Both the position numbers and the translations under genes were made by a program. 64,000 bases of DNA from an uncultured Schlesneria sp. Lineage in GTDB: Bacteria > Planctomycetota > Planctomycetia > Planctomycetales > Planctomycetaceae. The notes beneath the pieces were generated by a model. It searched no databases and was not told the DNA's origin. It worked only from the letters and a program-made list of their open reading frames with translations. Position 1 is the first letter of the stretch, and each line of letters starts with the position of its first letter. Where the stretch lies: the NCBI GenBank assembly GCA_903840265.1, contig CAIMFH010000185.1, forward strand, positions 1-64,000, given 5' to 3'. This document shows, one piece after another, positions 17,822 through 41,787 of this stretch.

Positions 17822-18757
17822 ATGAAGGATCGGGAACCAACTGTGACGTGGCTGCGAACAAAAACTCGACTGCGATTGCCGATCACGCTCAGCGTGGTGC
17901 TGATGGCTCTCAACGTGTCGCTGATGATTTGCTGGATCGTGCTGTTGGCTCGGCAGACGGGTTGGGGTGCGCTGATCGTCGGCGTGATCGTCTTCGCAGT
18001 CATCCTGCTGGGCCTGTCGTTCTATCTGGTGCTGATTATTAAAGAAGTACGGCTGAACCAGCGGCAGGCGAACTTTGTCGACAGCGTGACTCACGAACTG
18101 AAATCGCCGATTGCCTCTCTAAAGCTGTATCTGGAAACGCTGGTGATGCGGTCGGTCACCGACGAGCAACGCAACCGGTTCTATCATGTGATGGGAGAAG
18201 AGCTGGACCGGCTGGACCACTTGATCTCGCAACTGCTGGAAGTCGGTCGGCTGGATGCGATTGGCGAACAATCCGAACCCGAAGACATCCACCTGGAAGC
18301 GATGTTGCACAAATGTGGTGCCGCCGCGTGTGCTCACCATAAGCGAGAAGAGCAAACGACGATCACCTATGATGTGCAACCGGCGGTGATTCATGCGCGA
18401 CCGCTCGTGGTGGAGACGGTGTTTCGCAACCTGATGGATAATGCCATCAAGTATGCGGGAGATCCGCCCGCTGTCGAAGTCCAAGTTCGCGTGACAGATC
18501 GAGGTCGCGTGGCGACGCGGATCAGCGATAATGGGCATGGCGTACCTCCGGAACTGCGGAAACGGATCTTTGGGATGTTTTATCGAGCCGGTAGCGAGCT
18601 GACTCGACGGCAAAAGGGAACAGGTTTGGGTCTGTATATTGTGAACACGCTGGTTCGGCAGATGCAGGGACGTGTTAGCGTCCATGGCCGCACGAACCAG
18701 ACCGGTAGCGTGTTTGAAGTCGATTTGCCGGGAAGAAAGGGAAATGGCGAACTGTGA
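17822..18757 (+). CDS. Sensor histidine kinase (first two-component pair)
   Basis: 311 residues. There are two membrane helices (about 20-43 and 48-73) with almost no extracytoplasmic loop, so it probably senses within the membrane or from the cytoplasm. The DHp domain has FVDSVTHELKSPIASLK with phospho-acceptor His91. The ATPase domain follows with N box NLMDNAIKYA, G1 box DNGHGVP, F box FGMFYR and G2 box GTGLGLYIV. All catalytic elements are intact. The stop codon overlaps the GTG of the next gene (GTGA), so kinase and regulator are translationally coupled. The signal is unknown. Confidence 0.92.
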   Translation: MKDREPTVTWLRTKTRLRLPITLSVVLMALNVSLMICWIVLLARQTGWGALIVGVIVFAVILLGLSFYLVLIIKEVRLNQRQANFVDSVTHELKSPIASLKLYLETLVMRSVTDEQRNRFYHVMGEELDRLDHLISQLLEVGRLDAIGEQSEPEDIHLEAMLHKCGAAACAHHKREEQTTITYDVQPAVIHARPLVVETVFRNLMDNAIKYAGDPPAVEVQVRVTDRGRVATRISDNGHGVPPELRKRIFGMFYRAGSELTRRQKGTGLGLYIVNTLVRQMQGRVSVHGRTNQTGSVFEVDLPGRKGNGEL

Positions 18758-19536
18758 TCGGAAAAATTCCGGCCCCCACGGCCAACGCCAGCACCATGCG
18801 AATTTTGATTGTTGAGGACGAAGAAGCACTGGCCCAAGGGCTGAAGTTCAACTTTGAACAGGAAGGGTACGCAGTCTTATTGGCGGGGGACGGCCCCACG
18901 GCCCTGAAGCTGTTTGACGATGTGAACGCCCCTGTGGATCTATTGATCCTGGATCTGATGCTGCCCGGTATGAGCGGCTATGAAATCTGCACCGTAGTTC
19001 GCTCGAAGAACAAGACGGTGCCGATTCTGGTGCTCAGCGCCCGAACGCTGAGCGAGGACCGGATGCATGCATTCGATTGCGGGACAGATCAATACATCAC
19101 CAAGCCATTCGATCTGCCCGAGTTACTAAATCGCGTCCGCAATCTCCTCGAGCGCCACAAAACTTTGCTGACCGCCTCGAAAGTGGCGAGTGCCGAACCG
19201 ACGCCGCCACAGTACGAATTCACCCATTTCCGAGTTGAGCTGCAATCGTTTGAAGTCATCGTCGGCAACAAGCGACACAGTTTGACGACTCAGGAAATGC
19301 AGTTGCTGAAGTACTTCATCGAACATGAAGGGGAAGTGCTGTCGCGCTATCGCATTCTGGATGAAGTCTGGGACGAACACGTCGATGTGACGACACGAAC
19401 CATCGACAACTTCGTGTTGCGACTACGAAAGCTGATCGAGCCGGACCCGGCGCGGCCGCAGTACATCTTGTCGGTGCGTGGGACAGGGTATCGGTTTGTC
19501 AGTGGACGGAGTGAGGTCGCCGGTTCGAAGCCCTGA
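18754..19536 (+). CDS. OmpR/PhoB-family response regulator (first pair)
   Basis: 260 residues from the overlapping GTG, or 246 from ATG 18796, whose MRILIVEDEEAL is the canonical receiver start. The receiver has acidic pocket EDE, phospho-acceptor Asp67 (numbering from the GTG) in LLILDLMLPGMSGYE, and Lys in YITKPFDLPEL. The winged-helix DNA-binding domain is complete: LTTQEMQLLKYFIEHEGEVL, RTIDNFVLRLRKLIEPDP and VRGTGYRFV. It is the partner of the kinase directly upstream. The GTGA overlap favours the longer form; the ATG has no Shine-Dalgarno. Confidence 0.92.
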   Translation: MIGKIPAPTANASTMRILIVEDEEALAQGLKFNFEQEGYAVLLAGDGPTALKLFDDVNAPVDLLILDLMLPGMSGYEICTVVRSKNKTVPILVLSARTLSEDRMHAFDCGTDQYITKPFDLPELLNRVRNLLERHKTLLTASKVASAEPTPPQYEFTHFRVELQSFEVIVGNKRHSLTTQEMQLLKYFIEHEGEVLSRYRILDEVWDEHVDVTTRTIDNFVLRLRKLIEPDPARPQYILSVRGTGYRFVSGRSEVAGSKP

Positions 19537-19576: not shown

Positions 19577-19617
19577 TTTTTCAACGCAAAGTCGCCAGGG
19601 CACAAAGACGCGAAGGA
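19577..19617. repeat. Left arm of AACGCAAAG-family inverted repeat
   Basis: Reads TTTTCAACGCAAAGTCGCC and on through CACAAAGACGCGAAGG. It is an imperfect reverse complement of 20329-20370, with the gene at 19662-20243 lying between the arms. The same motif family forms a compact perfect palindrome at 41694-41787. Confidence 0.7.
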
Positions 19618-19661
19618 AAATGTTTGCTGAATTGTGATCTCCCAATTTCTCGAGGTAGACA

Positions 19662-20243
19662 ATGGCTGCACGGTTGATGTTGCGAATGCATCTTGAGGAA
19701 GCGTGGAGGCGAACAATTGCTCAGGAATACGCCGGTCAGCTAATCAATTCGGAAAAGGGATTGCAGGTCTTCTTCTGCAAACATCTGCTTGATTGTTTTA
19801 AGAGCGATAAAGTTTCTCGCAGGCTCTTCATCGAACCTCGCGTAAGCATGCCAGGATCTGACGACCCAAAGTATGCGAGGCACCCTGATATCGTCATATG
19901 TCACACTCGGAAGATTATTGGAATTGTCGAGATCAAGTATCTGCCACGTACGCGGGCCAAGTTTAAGAAGGACCTTCTCACTTTGGACTGGCTACTCGAA
20001 GGGCAGGTAGACGTAGCCCTTTCCAACGATCGTTACCGTGGCCCGCGAGCTGTTCACAAGGGATATTCGCTCGCAGGCGATGCGGTTTATTGCTGGGCAG
20101 GCGTTCATTGCGAACCTGAGACAAAGGTTGCCTTACCCGATGCCCGCGCAATCAATGATCGCGTTTTCGTACTGCATGCGATCACGTCACGCGAGGCGGT
20201 TCCAATTGTTCGCGTTGCCGGGAACACAGGGCTATCAGAGTAA
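19662..20243 (+). CDS. Uncharacterised protein with a PD-(D/E)XK nuclease-like motif
   Basis: 193 residues, soluble. Residues 75-92 read PDIVICHTRKIIGIVEIK. A Pro-Asp pair, a short hairpin and then E-x-K is the core of the PD-(D/E)XK nuclease fold, and the helix with Glu31 (NSEKGLQVFFCKHLLD) could supply the further acidic residue. The second half (LDWLLEGQVDVALS, YCWAGVHCEPETKVALPDA) is not recognised. Codon use looks more A/T-rich at third positions than in its neighbours. It sits between two two-component systems and is enclosed by inverted repeats, which suggests a separate history. It could be a restriction-like or DNA-repair enzyme, or a non-catalytic relative of the fold. Confidence 0.65.
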   Translation: MAARLMLRMHLEEAWRRTIAQEYAGQLINSEKGLQVFFCKHLLDCFKSDKVSRRLFIEPRVSMPGSDDPKYARHPDIVICHTRKIIGIVEIKYLPRTRAKFKKDLLTLDWLLEGQVDVALSNDRYRGPRAVHKGYSLAGDAVYCWAGVHCEPETKVALPDARAINDRVFVLHAITSREAVPIVRVAGNTGLSE

Positions 20244-20287
20244 TTCGATAATTCGTCTGCTGATGTGAGTGTTGGTCATGCCTTTTG

Positions 20288-20370
20288 AGCGAGAAGATGC
20301 CAAGGAAAACGGGAGTGCATTGATTTGCTCCTCTTTGCGTCTCCGCGCCTTTGCGACTTTGCGTTGAAAA
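20288..20370. repeat. Right arm of AACGCAAAG-family inverted repeat
   Basis: CTCTTTGCGTCTCCGCGCC followed by TTTGCGACTTTGCGTTGAAAA (20331-20370) is the reverse complement, with mismatches, of 19577-19617. Immediately before it, AGAAGATGCCAAGGAAAA (20291-20308) resembles the same arm in the opposite direction, so this side may itself be a decayed palindrome. Confidence 0.65.
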
Positions 20371-20395
20371 CGTCACCGACGCAGAACAAAGAATG

Positions 20396-20435
20396 ACGCA
20401 GGCCCGGCACTCACCGTTGAGCACCGGGCCTGCGT
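20396..20435. terminator. GC-rich hairpin, terminator-like
   Basis: ACGCAGGCCCGG (20396-20407) pairs perfectly with CCGGGCCTGCGT (20424-20435), a 12-bp stem with a 16-base loop. Outside it, GAACAAAG-like and GTTTCGTTC sequences extend the symmetry. GTTTC follows, only a weak T-run. It could end transcripts from either side of the PD-(D/E)XK gene region. Confidence 0.55.
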
Positions 20436-20968
20436 GTTTCGTTCTCGTTCGGAGCATTGAAGAATCTCGAACGAGGGGTGGCCGTCCGTACGGCAGCCCG
20501 TCGACGCCGTTAGGCTTCGCCACCTCGCTGGCGTTTACTGTCTGGATTCACGCGATCACCGTCCTTTCGTGCTAGAGTTCCCTGCTTCTACCGGACAGCC
20601 AGTGCCGGTTGCTTCGCAAGCTTTCCTAGTTCGCCGCGTACGTTCCCGCGGCACACATCGAAATCATTTCCAAATTTCCAGATCGAGACAAGAGAAATCT
20701 TCGCGTTCCGCCAACTTTTGGCAGATTCCTTTCGGCAAGTTTAGGCTGCTGGTCACTGATGCCGACCTCTTTTCGTGAATCGTTATGCCATTCACGATTG
20801 ATTTGAGGGCTTTAACACTTACATGTCCGTAAAGACAGCATTGAGTGCCTGTTGATTCCAGATAACATTCGTAATGTTACGCCTGAGGGGATACAAATGT
20901 GGTCACCCCTTCTGAGATGACACGGTGTCCATCGGGCTAGTTTCACAATCCTGTTCAAGGTGTGGGCA
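20436..20968. other. Intergenic region upstream of second response regulator
   Basis: About 530 bp with no convincing gene on either strand. It contains one clear small hairpin, TCGTGAAT/ATTCACGA at 20773-20797 with a nine-base loop. The last 200 bp are A/T-rich and presumably carry the promoter of the response regulator at 20969. Confidence 0.45.
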
Positions 20969-21658
20969 ATGCGAATTCTCGTGATTGAGGATGATCCATC
21001 GATCGGTCGGGCTTTGCTGCAAGGCTTCACGGAAGCGGGACATTCCTGCGACTGGGTACAGGATGGAGCAGCAGGAACTGAATCGGCGAAGTCTCAGCAG
21101 GCCGATGCCATTATTCTGGATTTGATGCTGCCGAAGCGAAGTGGCCAGGAAGTCTTGCGAGACATCCGCAGCATGGGCGTGCTCTGTCCTGTGATCCTGC
21201 TGACCGCAGTCAGTTCGGTGGACGAACGAGTGATGGCACTCAACGCCGGGGCCGACGACTATGTCTGCAAGCCGTTTGAGTTCGCCGAGTTACTCGCCCG
21301 TGTGAATGCAGTCGTTCGCCGGACCAGCGTGCGTCCCAGCCCGGTACTTTCGGTGGGCGATTTGACGCTGGACCTGACGACGCGACGAGTTTCACGTTCG
21401 GGACGCGATATCGATCTGACTCCGATTGAATTCAGCATGCTGGAATTGCTGCTGCGATTCGCGGGACAGGTAGTCACACGCAAGATGTTGTGCGAACACG
21501 TCTGGGGCTTTAACTGGGACGGCACAACGAACGTCATTGAGGTCCATGTGAATCGCCTGCGCGGCAAGCTGGACAAAGGTCGCACAGAATCGATCATCAA
21601 GACGGTGCGCGGTCGAGGCTACGCCATCGCTGGCGAGGAAACGGCAGACGTCGTCTGA
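20969..21658 (+). CDS. OmpR-family response regulator (second pair)
   Basis: 229 residues from ATG 20969; the frame also has a GTG three codons upstream. The receiver starts MRILVIEDDPSIGRALL, with phospho-acceptor Asp51 in IILDLMLPKRSGQE, Thr in LLTAVSSVDE and Lys in DDYVCKPFEFAELL. The winged helix follows: LTPIEFSMLELLLRFAGQVV, HVWGFNWDGTTNVIEVHVNR and VRGRGYAIAGEE. It resembles CopR/QseB-type regulators of metal or envelope stress. The histidine kinase lies 272 bp downstream on the same strand; the gap holds a palindromic repeat, an unusually wide spacing for a pair of this kind. Confidence 0.92.
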   Translation: MRILVIEDDPSIGRALLQGFTEAGHSCDWVQDGAAGTESAKSQQADAIILDLMLPKRSGQEVLRDIRSMGVLCPVILLTAVSSVDERVMALNAGADDYVCKPFEFAELLARVNAVVRRTSVRPSPVLSVGDLTLDLTTRRVSRSGRDIDLTPIEFSMLELLLRFAGQVVTRKMLCEHVWGFNWDGTTNVIEVHVNRLRGKLDKGRTESIIKTVRGRGYAIAGEETADVV

Positions 21659-21930: not shown

Positions 21931-23400
21931 ATGTCGCACAATGGACTGATGCGGTTCGCCATCAAGATGCGGACACTACGTGTCCGGTTGACCGTTTGGA
22001 ACACTGTCGTCGTCCTGTTGACGGTGTTGATTGCGCTCTTTGCCGTTCGTGAAGGTCTGCGCTTTTATCTGTTGCTGGAAACAGACGAAGTCCTGGAAGC
22101 GGAAGCGAACGAACTGCTGCTGGCGGTCGAAGAGTTCTACCATACCGACCAGTCGCAGATCATCGCGGAAATGAAACGCAAAGCGGAAGCCCACCGCAAA
22201 AGCGACTGGTACATTCGCTGGGTCGATAAGACGCACGAGCACGATTTATGGCACAGCGGCAATGTCCCGGCGGAGCCGCAAACTCGTTTTCTGGGATCGT
22301 ATAGCGGTCATAATGTCTGGGGTTCGGCCAGCCACCGGTCGATCGAGGTCGAACTCAATAAGCCCGGGCTTCCTCGACAATACATTCTGGTCGGAACTCC
22401 GATTGCATTCGTCGACGATGACGTCAATCGACTGACGCGCATCCTGGCACCGGTCGGGTTGGCAATTTTCCTGCTGGCTCCACTAGGTGGTTTACTGCTG
22501 GCCGAGCGGGCAATCGAACCTCTGCAAGAAATCATTCATACCACCGAGCGTCTGCGACCAAGCCACTTGAACGAGCGGCTTGTCGTTCGTGGTGTCGGCG
22601 ATGAACTGGATCAACTGGCTACCAAGATCAACACGTTCCTGGATGTCATCGCGACGCATCTGCAGAAGAACCGGGAATTCGTCGCAAATGCCGCTCACGA
22701 ACTGCGGTCACCGCTGACGGCGATTCAAAGTCTGGTCGAAGTGACGCTCGATAAGCCTCGCGAAACTGCGGAATACGAAGAGCTCTTGTTTCAGATCAAT
22801 GACGAATGCCGCCATCTGGCTCAGGTGGTCAACCAGTTGCTGCAGTTGACTCAAAGCGAAGCGCTGGCGGCAGAGACTCGGCAGGAACTGGTCAGCCTTG
22901 ATGAAATGGCGAATAAAGCGATGGAGATGTTTGAACCCGTCGCCGAAGAGCGACAGGTCAAGCTGAGTTCCTCTCTGACAGACGTTCAGATTTCAGGCAA
23001 TCCACGCGAAATCCGCCAACTGATGACAAACCTGGTGGACAACGCGATCAAGTTCACTCCCGCGGGCGGTACGGTGCATATCGGTTTGAAACGCCATGAC
23101 GACAAGATGGTTTGCCTAACGGTGCGGGACACGGGGATCGGAATTCCCGAGGCCGATCTCAGTCGCGTTTTTGATCGCTTCTTTCAAGTCGATAAATCGC
23201 GGCAACGTGGGATCGAGACGCGAGGAAACGGACTCGGTCTGGCCATTTGTCAGGCGATCGTGCATGCCCATCATGGGACGATCACGGTGGGCAGTAAGCT
23301 GGATGTCGGGACGACGTTCACGGTGATGCTGCCGATGGCGCGCAGTCCGGCAGTGGTCCCCGATATTGGCAGCCGTCACAAATCGCCAGTCGATCTTTGA
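21931..23400 (+). CDS. Sensor histidine kinase with periplasmic domain (second pair)
   Basis: 489 residues. TM1 lies at about 24-46, then a sensor domain of about 120 residues, and TM2 at about 171-191. HAMP-like sequence follows (AIEPLQEIIHTTERLRPSHL). The DHp has FVANAAHELRSPLTAIQSLV with His256. The ATPase domain has NLVDNAIKFTPAGG, DTGIGIPEADLSRVFDRFFQ and GNGLGLAICQAIVHAHHGTI. This is the layout of CusS/QseC-type kinases that partner OmpR-type regulators, matching the gene upstream. All catalytic boxes are intact. The sensor domain is not recognised. ATG 21931 is used; ATG 21949 and 21967 are possible. Confidence 0.92.
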   Translation: MSHNGLMRFAIKMRTLRVRLTVWNTVVVLLTVLIALFAVREGLRFYLLLETDEVLEAEANELLLAVEEFYHTDQSQIIAEMKRKAEAHRKSDWYIRWVDKTHEHDLWHSGNVPAEPQTRFLGSYSGHNVWGSASHRSIEVELNKPGLPRQYILVGTPIAFVDDDVNRLTRILAPVGLAIFLLAPLGGLLLAERAIEPLQEIIHTTERLRPSHLNERLVVRGVGDELDQLATKINTFLDVIATHLQKNREFVANAAHELRSPLTAIQSLVEVTLDKPRETAEYEELLFQINDECRHLAQVVNQLLQLTQSEALAAETRQELVSLDEMANKAMEMFEPVAEERQVKLSSSLTDVQISGNPREIRQLMTNLVDNAIKFTPAGGTVHIGLKRHDDKMVCLTVRDTGIGIPEADLSRVFDRFFQVDKSRQRGIETRGNGLGLAICQAIVHAHHGTITVGSKLDVGTTFTVMLPMARSPAVVPDIGSRHKSPVDL

Positions 23401-41693: not shown

Positions 41694-41787
41694 AACGCAA
41701 AGGCGCAAAGGCGCGAAGGCGCAAAGGGGGGCCGGTCGATTGGTCACTGCTCTTCTTTGCGCCTTCGCGCCTTTGCGCCTTTGCGTT
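41694..41787. repeat. Perfect inverted repeat, AACGCAAAGG family
   Basis: The left arm 41694-41726 and the right arm 41755-41787 are perfect reverse complements over 33 bp, each made of internally repeated GCAAAGGCGC-type steps. The loop is 28 bp. The motif matches the arms that flank 19662-20243. It lies in the 356-bp gap between rpsU and the esterase gene; nothing else is seen in that gap. Confidence 0.9.

Follow-up and report, generated by a model that had tools for sequence, protein, structure and literature searches.

A putative PD-(D/E)XK nuclease gene between the arms of a dispersed palindromic repeat in an uncultured Schlesneria

Introduction

How does a small nuclease-like gene come to stand between the two halves of a palindromic repeat, and what, if anything, ties the one to the other? 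The question is raised by a locus in the window (the whole stretch of 64,000 nucleotides that was analysed), which is part of a 7.49-Mb genome of an uncultured Schlesneria sp., here called G000. A first-pass annotation offered two readings of this locus: the gene had been inserted in the loop of a repeat, or the arms marked a small mobile unit that the nuclease-like protein moves. The reading favoured here is that a small nuclease gene of a horizontally spreading family entered a resident palindrome, and that palindromes of the CRCRRAG type are a general address or carrier for selfish nuclease genes; we hold it to be about evenly poised between right and wrong.

The gene and its arms

The locus, and a second palindrome further along the window, are made up as follows.

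17822-18757 and 18754-19536, + strand: left flanking histidine kinase and response regulator, intact
19579-19616, + strand: left arm, TTTCAACGCAAAGTCGCCAGGGCACAAAGACGCGAAGG, 31/38 identical to the reverse complement of its partner; tandem CRCRRAG-type units AACGCAAAG TCGCCAGGG CACAAAGA CGCGAAG
19605-19620, + strand: left-hand member of an imperfect 16-bp direct repeat on either side of the insert, AAGACGCGAAGGAAAA
19652-19656, + strand: Shine-Dalgarno-like GAGGT, 5 nt upstream of the ATG, read from the sequence
19662-20243, + strand: gene for a 193-aa protein of the putative PD-(D/E)XK nuclease family, with E31, PD75-76 and E90-x-K92, and with an INSER-LQ helix, RYRG and WAG as other motifs
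20294-20309, + strand: right-hand member of that direct repeat, AAGATGCCAAGGAAAA, similar to the inner end of a left arm
20306-20332, + strand: loop-like remnant adjoining the right arm; it can be aligned with the 28-nt loop that the empty palindrome has in the congener G403
20333-20370, - strand: right arm, TTTTCAACGCAAAGTCGCAAAGGCGCGGAGACGCAAAG, which matches that of the empty G403 palindrome at 38/38 positions
20960-21658 and 21931-23400, + strand: right flanking response regulator and histidine kinase, intact
41694-41787, no strand: compact gene-free palindrome of the same repeat family, with perfect 33-bp arms (33/33) and a 28-nt loop

The first-pass annotation was right to place a PD-(D/E)XK-motif gene between inverted arms and to call the second palindrome perfect and gene-free. 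The arms around 19662-20243 lie 716 nt from each other and score 23, whereas none of 2000 dinucleotide shuffles scored above 14, and they follow one grammar, that of CRCRRAG heptamers running inward in tandem, with 3 and 4 units. The palindrome at 41694-41787 folds at z = -12.8 and has an orthologue at G403:C22:48029-48124. Inside the arms of the gene-bearing copy, the two copies of the direct repeat are identical at 13-14 of 16 positions, with two mismatches (C/T and G/C), a score reached by 0.8% of shuffles; the right copy is comparable to the arm end AGACGCAAGGTAAAA in G403.

It had also been claimed that the gene interrupts two two-component loci. It does stand between a histidine kinase/response regulator pair and a response regulator/histidine kinase pair, but both pairs are intact and the gene is intergenic. 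Its composition sets it apart from its surroundings, as had been suspected: GC3 is 0.534 against 0.635-0.688 in eight neighbours, and the mean log RSCU is -0.13 against +0.12 to +0.22 in the same genes. No credible Rfam RNA was found in the interval of gene and arms. Beside the element, at 20388-20443, lies a terminator-like inverted repeat (ACGCAGGCCCGG...CCGGGCCTGCGT) that is kept in G403, G402 and G400. An intergenic block at 20478-20678 is about 72-76% conserved in most genus members, often beside other genes; it has no Rfam match and is possibly an RNA of a new kind or a regulatory element.

The 193-aa protein is a diverged, putative PD-(D/E)XK nuclease family without a Pfam or NCBIfam name. 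It has the acidic D...(D/E)xK motif of that superfamily and, in its model, the restriction-endonuclease-like core; P75-D76, E90, K92 and E31 are invariant in an alignment of 13 homologues. The AlphaFold2 model (pLDDT 86.4, pTM 0.85) gave no match at E <= 0.001 with Foldseek alone, and the top VIA-align matches were mostly restriction-endonuclease-like PD-(D/E)XK nucleases (Z of 8.0 for BglII, 7.9 for OkrAI, 7.7 for NucC and 7.4 for BstEII), with Card1 also among the structural neighbours. The Z scores are middling, so the structural matches weigh mainly jointly with the motif. Searches with the protein itself gave no Pfam, NCBIfam or significant PHROG match and no credible relative among PDB sequences, while its homologues have weak matches to HSDR_N and VRR_NUC. 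It was also tried as a known defence gene, an identity that was rejected with 0 PADLOC matches. We infer that the protein cuts DNA.

Occupied and empty sites

Evidence for insertion comes from the congener G403, whose genome carries the same locus without the gene, as the first-pass annotation had proposed to look for. The flanks are 92-97% identical between G000 and G403 on both sides, and where G000 has the gene-bearing element, G403 has a compact, near-perfect palindrome (G403:C22:24666-24760) in which TTCAACGCAAAGTCGCAAAGGCGCGGAGACGCAAGG is followed by a loop of 28 nt and then by the complementary arm. Neither palindrome nor gene is present in G402 (77-80% identical) or G400 (about 74%), in which the flanking genes or intergenic blocks are kept, and the two two-component pairs are adjacent, with no nuclease-like gene, in both G403 and G402. 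No orthologue of the gene was seen at this place without arms. Since G403 has the palindrome alone and G402 and G400 have neither, the simplest order is palindrome first and gene second, and the nuclease-like gene probably came into the loop of a repeat that was already there.

The left arm may tell how it entered. In G000 this arm matches its orthologue in G403 at 29 of 38 positions, and several other genomic copies at 33 of 38, which is what would be expected if it had arrived with the gene from another copy. Its divergence and the direct repeat both fit a course in which the gene came in where the left arm ends on the inside and a donor arm took the place of the resident one; decay of the left arm may account for the divergence instead. 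Outside the arms no clear target duplication of the sort left by a classical transposon or MITE emerged, the nearest palindrome-free genomes being only 74-80% identical and so too far diverged to fix the point of insertion.

The order could also be reversed, with the gene-bearing form ancestral and autonomous and the compact palindromes, that of G403 included, derived from it by internal deletion. Recombination between the 16-bp imperfect direct repeats would indeed yield the compact form, and GxxExxY genes, discussed below, stand mostly in arms. This reading is nonetheless improbable, as it is the G403 palindrome that is almost perfect and the left arm of G000 that is divergent, composition and phylogeny mark the nuclease gene as recently acquired, and unrelated genes occur in the same arms.

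The palindrome family in the genus

Arms were located across the genomes by pattern matching only. With up to two mismatches the pattern CAACGCAAAGNCGCNARGG has 46 matches in G000 and 4 in the control, and CAACGCAAAGNCGCNAAGG, with at most one mismatch, has 37 in G000, 36 in G403 and 0-10 in other members of the genus. Most matches pair into compact palindromes with arms about 70-150 bp apart, the rest being half elements, and most palindromes of G000 carry no gene.

Two arm pairs in G000 enclose about 700 bp, namely the window element and C85:27502-28213. The latter (L004 1457-2243) holds a 142-aa membrane-like ORF with two likely membrane helices; a hairpin stands on each side of it, with the arm nearer the gene degenerate in both. 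G403 lacks this element but has about 2.1 kb of other genes in its place and so does not offer a clean empty site. At another G403 locus (L100) a GxxExxY gene is enclosed by the same AACGCAAAG arms as the window gene, while in contig C104 of G000 only the last codons of a GxxExxY gene remain before the right arm. Two arm pairs in the congener G397 enclose inserts without a convincing gene. Unrelated genes, the window nuclease, GxxExxY and the 142-aa ORF, thus share one arm family, which argues for the palindrome as a socket or carrier and against its being the dedicated ends of the window gene alone.

Other repeats were seen as well. At five loci (L031, L035, L105, L104 and L027) half-palindromes adjoin a repeat containing CATGACACAACCTC, which seems to have split or replaced their other arm. 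A separate dispersed repeat of about 92 bp (L004 2895-2986) has dozens of copies in G403 and G404.

Homologues of the nuclease

The nuclease family was detected only by alignment-based searches; single-protein scans of genome contigs, viral contigs and phages returned 0 homologues. With the alignment, homologues turned up in 10 of the 170 genomes from the same family and in 14 of the 398 from the class, and further ones in Acidovorax, Comamonadaceae OS-4, Ideonella, Pelomonas, Dokdonella, Melioribacteraceae and Gemmatimonadetes, as well as on plasmids of Caballeronia, Paraburkholderia and Cupriavidus, a patchy spread over Planctomycetota, Proteobacteria, Ignavibacteriota and Gemmatimonadota. 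In the tree the window protein pairs with that of Acidovorax (97/93) and not with the planctomycete homologues, which suggests that the gene has spread by horizontal transfer. Three copies are decayed, one in G403 with one stop, one in G488 with several stops and a truncated one in G426. The G426 homologue (L206 / L223) ends after about 80 codons, beside transposase-like ORFs.

When a score of at least 20 was called as arms, 5 of 25 homologous loci were found to lie in inverted arms (window, G216, G659, G647 and G611), against 0 of 155 displaced controls, where the maximum was 15. G659, G647 and G611 have one neighbouring gene in common, so the five represent about three independent arm sites. 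The G647 arms contain ACGCAAAGGCGCGAAGGCGCAAAGG, a motif also present in the window arms; the G216 homologue lies in a different palindrome (TTAGCCGCGAGGcaaCGCCGAGCGCTG), which has about 65 pattern matches in the G216 genome. No usable empty site for the G647 element was found in its genus.

These counts bear on the two readings first offered. Insertion in the loop of a repeat is supported by G403, with its palindrome without the gene, and by G402 and G400, without both. There is no such support for a unit moved by the nuclease-like protein, as most palindromes are gene-free, 20 of the 25 homologous loci have no flanking arms, and some other copies have arms with no sequence relation to those of the window. 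Palindrome residence would accordingly be optional for the nuclease family.

Two further explanations meet their evidence here. In one, a restriction- or defence-like nuclease that benefits the host landed between the repeat halves by chance; its fold neighbours include restriction enzymes, NucC and Card1, most homologues lie outside arms, and one plasmid homologue is near an AbiEi/AbiEii pair. We consider this unlikely, given that PADLOC has no match, that the neighbouring ORFs examined include neither a methylase nor a conserved partner, and that arms recur at about three independent sites and in none of the controls. In the other, the arms are unrelated to the gene and their arrangement is accidental. 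Single (half) arms are common in the genome, but the shuffle statistics, the whole palindrome at the empty site and the recurrence leave this explanation with hardly any credibility.

GxxExxY and four-helix genes in hairpins

The favoured reading, in which palindromes of this type receive small nuclease genes, gains from a second family. A GxxExxY match over the cut-off was present in 95 of 199 sampled planctomycete genomes. Inverted arms surround 44 of 50 planctomycete GxxExxY loci, against 0 of 94 displaced controls at the same loci; a stricter control, in which flanks of different loci were paired, reached the threshold in 55 of 372, because arm families are common to several loci. Like the window gene, many have inward tandem CRCRRAG heptamers on both sides (32 of 58 GxxExxY genes, as compared with 0 of 110 displaced controls and 1 of 30 four-helix genes), and CRCRRAG-armed GxxExxY genes occur also in Bernardetia and Bacteroides (Bacteroidota) and on Sphingomonas plasmids. 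The GxxExxY and four-helix loci examined were mostly the best-scoring matches and not a random sample. On one Sphingomonas plasmid (L261) a GxxExxY gene with CRCRRAG-type arms lies between fabD and fabG, apparently within a fatty-acid synthesis operon.

Genes for four-helix-bundle proteins (PF05635) lie between inverted short-period repeats at 21 of 30 loci. Their arms (L139-L168) are made of short imperfect repeats in tandem, such as AGTGGTTAGTGG and GGGCATCGGGCACC, arrayed in opposite orientation on the two sides, an arm family that differs from that of GxxExxY. Since these genes are not nucleases, a nuclease is unnecessary to explain hairpin-enclosed genes.

In a further reading, another enzyme, such as a RAYT/TIRYT tyrosine transposase, moves the palindromes as units of MITE or REP type, and the nuclease gene is a passenger between their arms. 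REPtrons and TIRtrons have been described, many of them in R. baltica (PMC3733652), and in the genomes studied here most copies have no gene, while a single arm family serves different genes. We give this a minor chance of being correct, for none of the arm pairs examined enclosed a RAYT gene, there is no GTAG tag in the arms, and 44 of 50 GxxExxY genes in arms is seemingly beyond what chance passengers would give.

Probable entry into the palindrome and its implications

With an empty hairpin in G403, and GxxExxY genes usually in the same type of hairpin, it seems that hairpins of this kind serve small selfish nuclease genes as places to land or as carriers. The likeliest course of events begins with a small PD-(D/E)XK gene entering the loop of an intergenic palindrome at the inner end of the left arm. 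The nuclease would act at palindromes extruded as hairpins or cruciforms, and repair of the break by recombination with a gene-bearing palindrome would copy the gene into the empty one. Such a process would be homing-like but directed to a repeat, which would account for one gene family lying between arms that, from genome to genome, are those of the local repeats. Homing by palindrome cutting would be a plausible route.

A bolder version is that PD-(D/E)XK genes of both GxxExxY and the window family recognise the structure of palindromes and not any one sequence, cut them and are copied into the loop, so that one nuclease could colonise unrelated repeats in several phyla. This is tentative and, in our judgement, somewhat doubtful. 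If it were true, a large and so far undescribed class of minimal selfish elements would have intergenic hairpin repeats as its address, and if both families were palindrome-borne selfish nucleases, the genes and the dispersed CRCRRAG hairpins of several phyla would be explained together. G000 and G403 provide a simple occupied and empty system in which mobility could be tested directly.

Comparison with known systems

In a literature search that took in few subscription papers, no paper describing palindrome-enclosed small nuclease genes was found, nor any description of arms, function or mobility for GxxExxY / PF13366. GxxExxY (TIGR04256 / PF13366 PDDEXK_3) is among the closest known systems: it too is a small PD-(D/E)XK-family gene, usually in inverted arms, often of the inward tandem CRCRRAG grammar that surrounds the window gene, and in G403 it has the same AACGCAAAG arms as that gene. 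The window protein is longer, with 193 aa to about 125 in GxxExxY, and arms enclose its family only in some cases. Membership in TIGR04256 was rejected, there being no match above the curated cut-off, and comparison of the two family profiles gave a probability of 0.6% with no significant alignment.

REPtrons and TIRtrons consist of RAYT genes flanked by inverted REP or TIR repeats, and many are known from the planctomycete R. baltica (PMC3733652). As in the window, a nuclease-type gene lies between inverted, dispersed palindromic repeats, and gene-free copies abound (PMC3733652). The window enzyme is, however, of the putative PD-(D/E)XK type and not an HUH tyrosine transposase, and the arms are tandem heptamer arrays without the GTAG tag. 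Membership failed on the RAYT/Y1 (HUH) protein, as the enclosed ORF has no Pfam match and a predicted PD-(D/E)XK fold.

The intervening sequences of 23S rRNA with an S23 ORF, for example in Coxiella, form a stem of terminal inverted repeats with the ORF in the loop and are regarded as selfish (PMC4990558). The window element has the same arrangement of ORF, loop and stem, but its product is nuclease-like and not a four-helix bundle, and it is intergenic and not in an rRNA gene. Membership here failed too, since the window has no Rfam match and two-component genes flank the element. With the defining feature of GxxExxY, of REPtrons/TIRtrons and of the 23S intervening sequences each lacking, the window element is not classed with any of them.

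Entry of mobile DNA into palindromic repeats has a parallel in ISPpu9/10, ISPsy8, ISPa11 and other insertion sequences that target REP palindromes (PMC1525189), from which the window element differs in having a single 193-aa ORF and no transposase. Homing endonuclease genes differ in another respect, as the target of the window family is not constant in sequence and some of its palindromes have nothing in common with the others. The likeness of the window element to them lies in a nuclease-like protein encoded at a site for which both alleles are at hand, occupied in G000 and empty in G403.
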